From positions 1 to 6,500 of the forward strand of contig JAEEIS010000130.1 in NCBI GenBank assembly GCA_016281475.1: a stretch of 6,500 nt of DNA, read 5' to 3'. The notes beneath the pieces were generated by a model. It made no database searches and was not told the origin of the DNA. It was given only the letters and a program-made list of their open reading frames with translations. Of this stretch, positions 2,821-5,115 are shown piece by piece. The translations under genes and the position numbers were made by a program. Position 1 is the stretch's first letter; each line of letters begins with the position of its first letter. Source of the DNA: Bacteroidales bacterium. Its GTDB lineage: Bacteria; Bacteroidota; Bacteroidia; Bacteroidales; P3.

Positions 2821-3937
2821 TTTGAAACGGCAATACGCCGCTGTCCAGAAGGAGATGGATATGGCTGTCCGTGATGCAATTGCGGACGGTGTGTTCATTA
2901 TGGGCCAGCGGGTTGCAGAGCTGGAAACGCGGCTTGCGGCGTATGTCGGCGCAAAGCATTGCATCACGTGCGCCAGCGGGACGGATGCCCTTACGCTTGC
3001 CCTCAAGGCAATGTCAATAGGCGCGGGCGATGCTGTATTCGTGCCCGATTTTACCTTCTTCGCAACTGCAGAGGCGGTGGCGCTGGAGGGCGCAACTCCC
3101 ATTTTTGTCGATGTCCGGGAAGATACATTCAATATCGATGTACAGAGCCTGGAAACAGCTGTAGCAAGGGTAAAGAAAGAGGGCTGTCTGAAGCCGAAGG
3201 CCATAATTGCCGTAGATCTTTTCGGGCAGCCGGCAGATTATGACGCCATCCGCGAAGTGGCCCGGCGCTATGACCTTAAAATCATAGAAGACGGTGCCCA
3301 GGGATTCGGCGGGCGCATCGGCAACAGGCGCGCCTGCAGTTTTGGAGATATCGCCACGACATCTTTCTTCCCGGCAAAGCCGCTTGGCTGCTACGGAGAC
3401 GGTGGCGCCGTGTTTACCGACAATGACGAATGGGCCGCCGTAATGGTTTCCCTGCGGGTGCACGGCAAGGGTTCCAACAAATACGACAATGTGCGTATAG
3501 GTCTCAATTCAAGGCTTGATACACTTCAGGCCGCCGTGCTCAAAGTCAAAATGGACGCCTTCGAAAAGTGGGAGTTACAGGCTGTCCAGGATGCAGCTGC
3601 CAGCTACACCAAACACCTGGAAGGGGTGGTGGCAACCCCCGTCGTTCCGGAAGGATACTATTCGTCCTGGGCGCAATACACCATCCGGCTTTCGGACCAG
3701 TCGGAGCGGGATGCAGTAAAGTCGGCGCTAAGTTCAAAAGGAATTCCGACCGGCGTGTATTACCCCAGGCCATTGCATCTGCAGCCGGCGTTCAGCCATC
3801 TGCCTCAGAATGACCCTTGCCCGGTTGCAACGCGCGTTTGTACGCAGGTTCTGTCGCTTCCTATGCACCCGTATTTGACTTCCAGCGAAATTAACGAAGT
3901 TTGCGGAACTATTTGCGACAGTTTGATTAAAGAATGA
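2807..3937 (+). CDS. wbpE: WbpE-like PLP-dependent sugar 3-aminotransferase (DegT/DnrJ/EryC1 family)
   Basis: A 376-residue fold-type I aminotransferase of normal family length. It most resembles WbpE, which uses glutamate to convert the 3-keto group of UDP-2-acetamido-3-keto-glucuronate to an amine. It begins with the typical MEFRDLKRQY, has the cofactor loop CASGTDAL (55-62), the substrate-side TFFATAEAV (83-91), IIEDGAQGFGG (159-169) with Asp162 as the pyridine-binding acid, and SFFPAKPLGCYGDGG (186-200) with Lys191 as the Schiff-base lysine. Later blocks GLNSRLDTLQAAVL and LSLPMHPYL are also characteristic. It starts inside the acetyltransferase gene and overlaps the next start through ATGA, so it is translationally coupled on both sides. 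WbpD next to WbpE is the known pairing and strengthens both calls. Specificity for a uronate rather than a 3-keto-6-deoxyhexose is inferred, because the WbpA and WbpB dehydrogenases are not in this window. Confidence 0.86.
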   Translation: MEFRDLKRQYAAVQKEMDMAVRDAIADGVFIMGQRVAELETRLAAYVGAKHCITCASGTDALTLALKAMSIGAGDAVFVPDFTFFATAEAVALEGATPIFVDVREDTFNIDVQSLETAVARVKKEGCLKPKAIIAVDLFGQPADYDAIREVARRYDLKIIEDGAQGFGGRIGNRRACSFGDIATTSFFPAKPLGCYGDGGAVFTDNDEWAAVMVSLRVHGKGSNKYDNVRIGLNSRLDTLQAAVLKVKMDAFEKWELQAVQDAAASYTKHLEGVVATPVVPEGYYSSWAQYTIRLSDQSERDAVKSALSSKGIPTGVYYPRPLHLQPAFSHLPQNDPCPVATRVCTQVLSLPMHPYLTSSEINEVCGTICDSLIKE

Positions 3938-5115
3938 AATATTTCTTTAAGAAACGCCCCTGGGTCTCGATGCGACCCGAAAAAGAGGCTCCGCTTGGCA
4001 ATTACGCCGAGAGGGTGGAGACTCACAGGGCCGCTTTTGTAAAAGCTCTTGAAGATTTCCCCGAATTGCGGTATTTGCTAAGGGAACCCACCGGCGAAAC
4101 TACTGCAGAGCTTAACGATTGGCTGTACGAGCATCGGGACACACTTTCTCCCGACACTGCCATAGTGGAAGGGACAGACCCGGAGACGGCTACAGGCTTG
4201 AGCGATAAAAATGCCCGCCTTGTTATTTGCACAGTCGACCTGTCCCACATCAGGCATCTGAACACGATGCTCAACCGTATAAACGAAACCTTGTGCGACA
4301 ACGGCATATTGTTTTGCTACTCGCGAACATCTGGATACCAAAGATCTTTGATACTCAAAAATTATCCGGGCCTCTGGGGTCGTTTCTTGTGCAGTCTCCA
4401 TTTCCTTTGGCACAGGGCAATGGCGCGACTCAAGACTACCCGATGGCTCTACATGTGGGTAACAAAAGGCAAGAACCGGTCGTTTCCTCGCGTGGAAATT
4501 CTGGGCAGGATGTACAGGGCAGGATTCAGTGTCTTGTACGAGCGCTTTTTCGACGGAAAGTTCGTTCTTGTGGTGCAGAAATCCAAAGCCCCAATCTGGG
4601 ACGACGACCCTACCAACGGCCTGTTGGCAAAACTCCCGCGCGTGGGCTATAATGGGAATAAGATAGGTGTATACAAGGTACGCACAATGTATCCATATTC
4701 CGAATACCTTCAGCAATATATGTACGAAGTGCATGGCCTGGCAGAAGGCGGAAAATTCAAAAATGACTTTCGTGTAAATCAAATAGGGCGGCGTATCCGT
4801 GGCACCTGGATAGATGAGCTGCCAATGATTATCAATCTGCTCAAGGGTCAGTTGAAACTGGTGGGAGTGCGCCCGCTCAGCAAGCAATACCTCTCGCTGT
4901 ACACTCCCGAAATGCAGCAGTTGCACATTGGCGTGAAGCCGGGCCTGCTGCCCCCGTTCTATTATGAGAAGCAAACTCCGCAAACAATAGAGGAGGTTCA
5001 GGCCTCCGAGCGGAAATATATAGAGGCTTGGCACAAACACCCGTTTGCTACAGACTGGCACTATTTCTGGGGCATTATGGGTAACATTCTGTTCAAGCAC
5101 AAACGTTCTAAATAG
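3934..5115 (+). CDS. Atypical bacterial sugar transferase with methyltransferase-like N-terminal region
   Basis: A 393-residue protein in two parts. The C-terminal half (about 233-393) matches the core of polyprenyl-phosphate phosphoglycosyl transferases (WcaJ/PglC family), which move a sugar phosphate from UDP-sugar to undecaprenyl phosphate at the inner membrane. It shows PRVGYNGNKIGVYKVRTM (235-252), then GTWIDELPMIINLLKGQLKL (290-309) with the Asp294-Glu295 catalytic pair, VGVRPLS (310-316) and VKPGLLPPF (334-342). The usual N-terminal membrane hairpin with its Lys-Arg-x-x-Asp start and the SPGPVFF block are missing. Instead, residues about 94-218 look like the second half of a class I methyltransferase (LVICTVDLSH, CDNGILF, a final AGFSVLYERFFDGKFVLVV), but no glycine-rich SAM motif is visible. 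The aromatic, basic stretch 147-177 might sit at the membrane surface. Residues 1-90 are unrecognised. ATG at 3934 overlaps the previous stop by 4 nt; gmd begins 1 nt after the stop. The sugar handled is unknown. Confidence 0.8.
   Translation: MKYFFKKRPWVSMRPEKEAPLGNYAERVETHRAAFVKALEDFPELRYLLREPTGETTAELNDWLYEHRDTLSPDTAIVEGTDPETATGLSDKNARLVICTVDLSHIRHLNTMLNRINETLCDNGILFCYSRTSGYQRSLILKNYPGLWGRFLCSLHFLWHRAMARLKTTRWLYMWVTKGKNRSFPRVEILGRMYRAGFSVLYERFFDGKFVLVVQKSKAPIWDDDPTNGLLAKLPRVGYNGNKIGVYKVRTMYPYSEYLQQYMYEVHGLAEGGKFKNDFRVNQIGRRIRGTWIDELPMIINLLKGQLKLVGVRPLSKQYLSLYTPEMQQLHIGVKPGLLPPFYYEKQTPQTIEEVQASERKYIEAWHKHPFATDWHYFWGIMGNILFKHKRSK

Follow-up and report, generated by a model that had tools for sequence, protein, structure and literature searches.

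For monotopic phosphoglycosyl transferases (PGTs) such as PglC, a covalent sugar-phosphate intermediate has been proposed, and their class carries a motif known as the Pro-Arg-Pro motif. The monotopic PGT superfamily is described as sharing a conserved re-entrant helix; in PglC, Lys7-Arg8 and Ser23-Pro24 of this helix are reported as key for topology and activity, Lys7 has Asp169 in the C-terminal part as its partner, and the K7A variant is inactive (PMC6133551). UbiG, a class I methyltransferase, is described as binding the membrane via a segment inserted between one of its core strands and a helix further on (PMC4796655). For the A-LPS form of lipopolysaccharide (LPS) in Porphyromonas gingivalis, wbpA, wbpB, wbpD and wbpE genes and an initiating PGT, proposed to be WbaP (PGN_1896), are reported to serve one surface glycan (PMC7468200, PMC13086638), and Wzx is reported to be used for both LPS types (PMC3684754). 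Here we describe a gene, given the working name MT-PGT, in a stretch of 6,500 nucleotides from a Bacteroidales bacterium (contig JAEEIS010000130.1, positions 1 to 6,500; the whole stretch is called the window below). We consider it probable, with considerable room for doubt, that MT-PGT is an active PGT that starts an exported surface polysaccharide, having lost the canonical re-entrant helix and docking its active site through a hairpin and a C-terminal helix.

Catalytic core and the missing re-entrant helix

The gene and the elements of its product are as follows.

3934..5115, + strand: MT-PGT gene, 393 residues; degenerate methyltransferase-like half plus PGT catalytic domain
4096..4590, + strand: methyltransferase-like fold, class I, residues 55-219; five strands predicted, GxGxG motif absent
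4372..4464, + strand: helix-break-helix hairpin, aromatic and basic, proposed membrane dock; residues 147-177 (helices 147-165 and 167-177)
4414-4416, + strand: Arg161 of the hairpin
4609..5100, + strand: PGT catalytic domain, residues 226-389
4813..4818, + strand: Asp294-Glu295 catalytic dyad
5041..5097, + strand: C-terminal amphipathic aromatic helix with conserved Thr373-Asp374, residues 370-388

Residues 232-375 of MT-PGT match positions 37-167 of the 179-position PF02397 (Bac_transf) profile at 74.9 bits (curated cut-off 27), and the same family was matched in 63/63 proteins of a member set, A2, at E<=0.1. A search of solved structures matched WbaP and PglC over the PGT half, with the remaining matches at E 0.27 or worse, and comparison of the predicted structure gave this half a PglC/WbaP fold. 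The catalytic dyad is conserved across 319 aligned members (Asp294 in 317, Glu295 in all 319), as are K248, R250, D278, R280, N301, R313, P314, P340 and P341 (100%); the alignment is redundant and weighted toward close relatives of two query proteins, and the dyad is kept even in members only 33% identical to the window protein.

The start of the canonical domain is what is missing. Profile positions 1-36 are unmatched, structural alignment of the model with PglC begins at PglC residue 38, the hydropathy scan found no hydrophobic window in MT-PGT, and the SPGPVFF block is absent. A sequence-only reading of the window had reported PGT motifs with an Asp-Glu pair and the absence of both the membrane hairpin and the SPGPVFF block, and the profile, alignment and hydropathy results bear it out on each point. 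We conclude that MT-PGT belongs to the PF02397 catalytic family, falls outside the monotopic PGTs as defined by the re-entrant helix, and most likely works like a monotopic PGT, in which case catalysis by Asp294-Glu295 would pass through the kind of covalent sugar-phosphate intermediate proposed for PglC. A membrane element other than the re-entrant helix may stand in for it.

Conservation of the dyad also bears on whether MT-PGT is a catalytically dead protein with a regulatory or scaffolding role toward another PGT or the export machinery. The lost helix, core motifs that are altered (see below) and the cofactor motif gone from the fused half would all fit such a protein, yet in a decayed enzyme the dyad should have been lost over the range of identities at which it is kept here, and we regard this explanation as very improbable.

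MT-PGT is a member of a large, unnamed family of sugar transferases. At E<=0.001 the protein search returned 4949 proteins; the 120 best matches are mostly 376-397 residues long, with alignments covering 84-100% of the query. Where the sources in the hit lists give names, these are only "sugar transferase", "glycosyltransferase" or "hypothetical protein", which hide the architectural difference of the family. Every NCBIfam model scored far below its cut-off with MT-PGT (best EPS_sugtrans, 75.1 bits against 295.55), the curated cut-offs of the WcaJ, WbaP and EpsZ models included, so that the whole protein found no better match in a characterised family. No paper on this architecture was found in the literature as judged by titles and the starts of abstracts; the main published sequence-network study of monotopic PGTs lies outside that scope. 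The earlier suggestion of an under-described subfamily in Bacteroidales polysaccharide loci is upheld.

The methyltransferase-like half and proposed membrane contact

In a search with the predicted model, the N-terminal half of MT-PGT resembles methyltransferases, and residues 55-219 have the class I fold. PF13489 (methyltransferase) matches 31/63 A2 members. Motif I for S-adenosylmethionine (SAM), GxGxG, is not present in the window protein, and a pattern scan of the 319 members gave a single hit (P0140), located at a later LxxGG turn and not at motif I. The half is conserved in R182 (97%), E188 (99%), G191 and G197 (both 100%). The sequence-only reading of it as a methyltransferase-like half without the SAM loop thus holds in the model, and an active methyltransferase was rejected on the missing motif, both in the window protein and in the scan. 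A bifunctional MT-PGT, with an N-terminal half that retains methyltransferase activity on a lipid or sugar, would account for the fold and the PF13489 matches, but it is hardly credible against the misplaced lone motif hit, the prediction of only five strands, and a reduced relative (L164, a 327-residue frame) that has lost much of the methyltransferase half, its first part included, but retains the hairpin, the E..GR....GF helix and the final strands.

These data can also be set against an ordinary diverged large PGT of the WbaP/WcaJ type, its middle domain and re-entrant helix drifted beyond recognition. Profile comparison of the family with six large PGTs aligned only the catalytic domain, PF13727 gave no hit in the members scanned, and the middle domain matches methyltransferases in predicted structure. 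Such drift is distinctly unlikely in our view.

Residues 147-177 of the window protein form an amphipathic hairpin. Across the 319 members, three helices have both a negative per-residue mean of the Wimley-White interfacial energy and a net positive charge: 147-165 (-0.17), 167-177 (-0.28) and 370-388 (-0.19); the acidic catalytic helix 292-303 is slightly negative (-0.11), and the other nine helices examined are positive, in a calculation that omitted three short predicted helices (44-50, 283-288 and 317-321). Favourable energy and positive charge are therefore paired in the hairpin and the C-terminal helix. Hairpin residues R161 (314/319) and Y173 (317/319) and D374 of the C-terminal helix (317/319) are conserved, and the break at position 164 is Pro in 45% and Ala in 44% of members, Ala in the window protein. 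A transmembrane-like window within the core was seen in 2/319 members: in L158 it lies in a strand, and in P0167 in the hairpin, one helix of which (residues 255-285 of that protein) has transmembrane-like hydropathy.

The hairpin probably touches the membrane, judging from sequence and model, and we propose it as the dock: lying inside a decayed methyltransferase fold, it would, together with helix 370-388, lay the active site on the membrane face. Of the two routes to the membrane that the sequence-only reading had offered, the aromatic/basic stretch 147-177 or a partner protein, the stretch is the likelier candidate on sequence and model. The prediction for the N-terminal half shows the amphipathic hairpin (transmembrane-like in P0167) and no hydrophobic re-entrant helix. 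In the profile comparison, Asp374 lines up with an Asp that canonical large PGTs carry; we infer that it is the counterpart of PglC Asp169, and Arg161 may replace PglC Lys7.

Family architectures, gene neighbourhoods and candidate function

Relatives differ in what precedes this two-part core. Among the 319 members, the core is preceded by no hydrophobic window in 184, by four in 98 and by some other number in 37; window-type proteins have no transmembrane helix, and a type of about 500 residues, Bacteroides ovatus P0200 included, has four. The P0200 model (predicted local distance difference test, pLDDT, 85.5; predicted template modelling score, pTM, 0.80) shows four long helices followed by the same methyltransferase-like half and PGT, and it aligns along the whole length of WbaP with a root-mean-square deviation (rmsd) of 18, which indicates that its domain placement differs. 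A tree of 82 members, thinned from 285 proteins of at least 370 residues and drawn without two sets of loci, places the types with and without transmembrane helices on opposite sides, excepting P0237, a 395-residue row without such helices inside the transmembrane group that may be a late-start fragment. Seven Bacteroidota frames of 648-684 residues (L155-L161) have between six and eight hydrophobic windows at the N-terminus (L160 and L161 have eight) and are read as a doubled four-helix unit before the core. Two frames of about 470 residues (L162, L163) have a different N-terminus, helix-turn-helix-like by eye, in place of transmembrane helices.

The four, or as many as eight, hydrophobic helices that precede the core in many relatives suggest that the membrane is reached in several ways in the family, and the extra helices may strengthen anchoring. 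More tentatively, and short of an even balance of belief, the family could be a PGT class that works without a re-entrant helix: a captured, dead methyltransferase fold would be the membrane dock, its hairpin would do the helix's jobs, with Arg161 perhaps in the place of Lys7 alongside D374, and the module would be retained whether no, four or roughly eight hydrophobic helices precede it.

In a scan of genome contigs, 427 stretches were seen to encode a relative. The best 80 form the locus set used below, and 63 of them were tabulated; their titles are mostly metagenome-assembled Bacteroidales from animal guts, plus Bacteroides gallinarum. One locus labelled Fibrobacter sp. (L006) has a Bacteroidales-type copy at 56% identity and may be a mis-binned contig. 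Twenty genomes from this set each encode exactly one protein whose PF02397 match lacks at least the first 30 profile positions; in one (G008) a canonical PF02397 frame, split in two pieces, was also seen. In the order of B. gallinarum, 44/149 genomes have a match at E<=1e-60, a chosen cut that excludes a fragment in G067; 42 of these show one match and two (G062 and G160) show more, while the match in G150 is cut by a contig end to the PGT half and that in G030 starts at model position 173. Phylum-wide, at least 22/296 genomes match at E<=1e-30, a lower bound with at most five candidates per genome scored; B. gallinarum is included in both counts. Against a phage collection, searched by megablast only, the window gave no near match.

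In the window the gene order is upxY, ompA-like, wbpD-like, wbpE-like, MT-PGT, gmd, fcl, with these neighbours.

360..905, + strand: UpxY-family antiterminator (NF033644, 102.9 bits, cut-off 100, scanned from the alternative GTG start 333)
902..2248, + strand: OmpA-domain protein (PF00691) between upxY and the wbpD-like gene; its cluster occurs in 15 loci, window included
2251..2820, + strand: hexapeptide acyltransferase, WbpD-like by resemblance; likely GTG start 2251, alternative TTG 2212
2807..3937, + strand: DegT/DnrJ-type aminotransferase, WbpE-like by resemblance; overlaps the MT-PGT start, PseC-type models below cut-off
5117..6205, + strand: GDP-mannose 4,6-dehydratase, gmd (TIGR01472, 527.6 bits, cut-off 415)
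6205..6500, + strand: GDP-L-fucose synthase, fcl, cut by the window end (NF047922 partial, 131.6 bits, cut-off 500)

The best NCBIfam model for the WbpD-like protein was NeuD/NnaD (77.3 bits, cut-off 160.8), and Hexapep was found in a relative from another locus. Neighbours were counted on the same strand within 3 kb upstream (74/80 loci with at least 1.5 kb there) or 6 kb downstream of MT-PGT (65/80 with at least 3 kb); the names Wzm and Wzt each come from a Pfam scan of a single member, and that of wbpB from resemblance alone. Upstream, a wbpE-like gene occurs in 27/74 loci, B. gallinarum L077 among them, and upxY in 35/74; the wbpE-like open frame adjoins or overlaps the MT-PGT frame in 27/80. 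Downstream, Wzm was found in 47/65 loci, Wzt in 39/65 and Wzx in 8/65. Around 20 canonical PGTs of the same order, Wzm and Wzt were each found downstream in 0/17 and a wbpE-like gene upstream in 4/20. L077 has upxY-wbpA-wbpB-wbpD-wbpE and then a four-helix MT-PGT frame (4150-11014), which is open from 9491 with its first ATG only at 10262.

From sequence, predicted folds, conservation and the gene context of relatives, we propose an activity, a donor, an acceptor, a mode of membrane docking and an export route for the window locus. MT-PGT would move a sugar-1-phosphate from a uridine diphosphate (UDP)-sugar onto polyprenyl phosphate, and this loading would start an exported surface polysaccharide. 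The donor may come from a WbpD/WbpE-like route, and the polymer would probably be exported by Wzm/Wzt, genes seen in related loci only, the window ending inside fcl. A Wbp-like donor link as a family-wide rule was rejected on the counts upstream (27/74 loci, and 0/19 in other lineages).

The second set, 20 loci from other Bacteroidales (L111-L130), has a different surrounding. A conserved protein of about 555 residues with a secretion-signal-like start lies next to or near MT-PGT in 11/20; two members tested had no Pfam match, and a suggested identity as Wzi was not supported in them. An exosortase-like cluster occurs in 5/20, with PF09721 in the one member tested (L115). In one locus (L116) a wbpE-like gene lies further off, about 5 kb upstream.

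Several observations weigh against the proposed activity and docking. The canonical Pro-Arg-Pro reads V-R-P (V in 304/319 members) and the canonical PGITG reads PGL.PP across the family, so donor or acceptor may differ. Arg161 is lost in P0167. Because the 80 loci themselves supplied the neighbour models, matches there are favoured and the comparison with canonical PGTs is biased. In the other lineages, Wzm, Wzt and Wbp-like genes were found in 0/19 loci within 3 kb upstream and 0/17 within 6 kb downstream, and in one of these 20 loci (L119) a canonical small PGT lies two genes downstream of MT-PGT. More than one match to the polytopic PGT family PF00953 was found in 12/20 genomes, so that WecA-type initiators are present in many; in one (G013) the contig that carries MT-PGT also has such a match, a 332-residue frame about 12.6 kb upstream of the gene. 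Together with the lost helix, and with canonical PF02397 proteins elsewhere in 17/20 genomes, these points (the motif changes, L119 and the extra PF00953 matches) fit a PGT fold with another task: chain initiation would fall to a canonical or WecA-type PGT, and MT-PGT would transfer a sugar-1-phosphate to an acceptor other than polyprenyl phosphate, such as a lipid, a second sugar or a terminal cap. This alternative is unlikely, though to be taken seriously. Against it, the sequence flanking the 80 loci, at most 10 kb on each side and in many cases shorter, gave no match to a canonical or other PF02397-type PGT (model built from 10 of 20 fetched canonical regions, chosen by a text filter), a single PF00953 match, presumably MraY, was found in 8/20 genomes, many of them metagenome assemblies that may be incomplete, and the transmembrane helices of many relatives point to a membrane substrate. 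The expectation that no canonical transferase shares the locus accordingly stands for the flanks of the 80 loci and fails in L119. On the initiating reading, MT-PGT is proposed as the starting enzyme for Bacteroidales loci with Wzm/Wzt genes and no canonical starter nearby.

Comparison with described systems

A widespread natural family with the catalytic pair and without the helix offers a ready-made test of whether that helix serves membrane insertion, lipid-substrate binding, or both. With PglC, the small monotopic PGT of Campylobacter (PDB 8e37, 8g1n), MT-PGT has the catalytic fold, the Asp-Glu dyad and C-terminal helices in common; PglC has the re-entrant helix, whereas MT-PGT has a methyltransferase-like half in front instead. 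The large PGTs WbaP/WcaJ (PDB 8t53) share the catalytic domain, and the four-helix N-terminal layout is shared by the long MT-PGT relatives and missing in the window form; unlike these enzymes, MT-PGT has neither PF13727 nor the re-entrant helix, and its middle domain is a methyltransferase fold. Bifunctional monotopic PGTs (Bi-PGTs), as defined in PMC10942596, resemble MT-PGT in having an extra domain fused to the PGT core, but the fused half of MT-PGT seems to have lost catalysis and its core is without the re-entrant helix. The P. gingivalis A-LPS system, with Wbp genes and an initiating PGT for one glycan, resembles MT-PGT loci at the level of genes. Compared with class I methyltransferases of the UbiG/Coq3 type, the MT-PGT half lacks SAM motif I, has a shortened sheet and is fused to a PGT. 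The family suggests re-use of a methyltransferase fold as a membrane dock, for which the membrane-binding insertion described in UbiG (PMC4796655) would be a precedent in kind for the hairpin.
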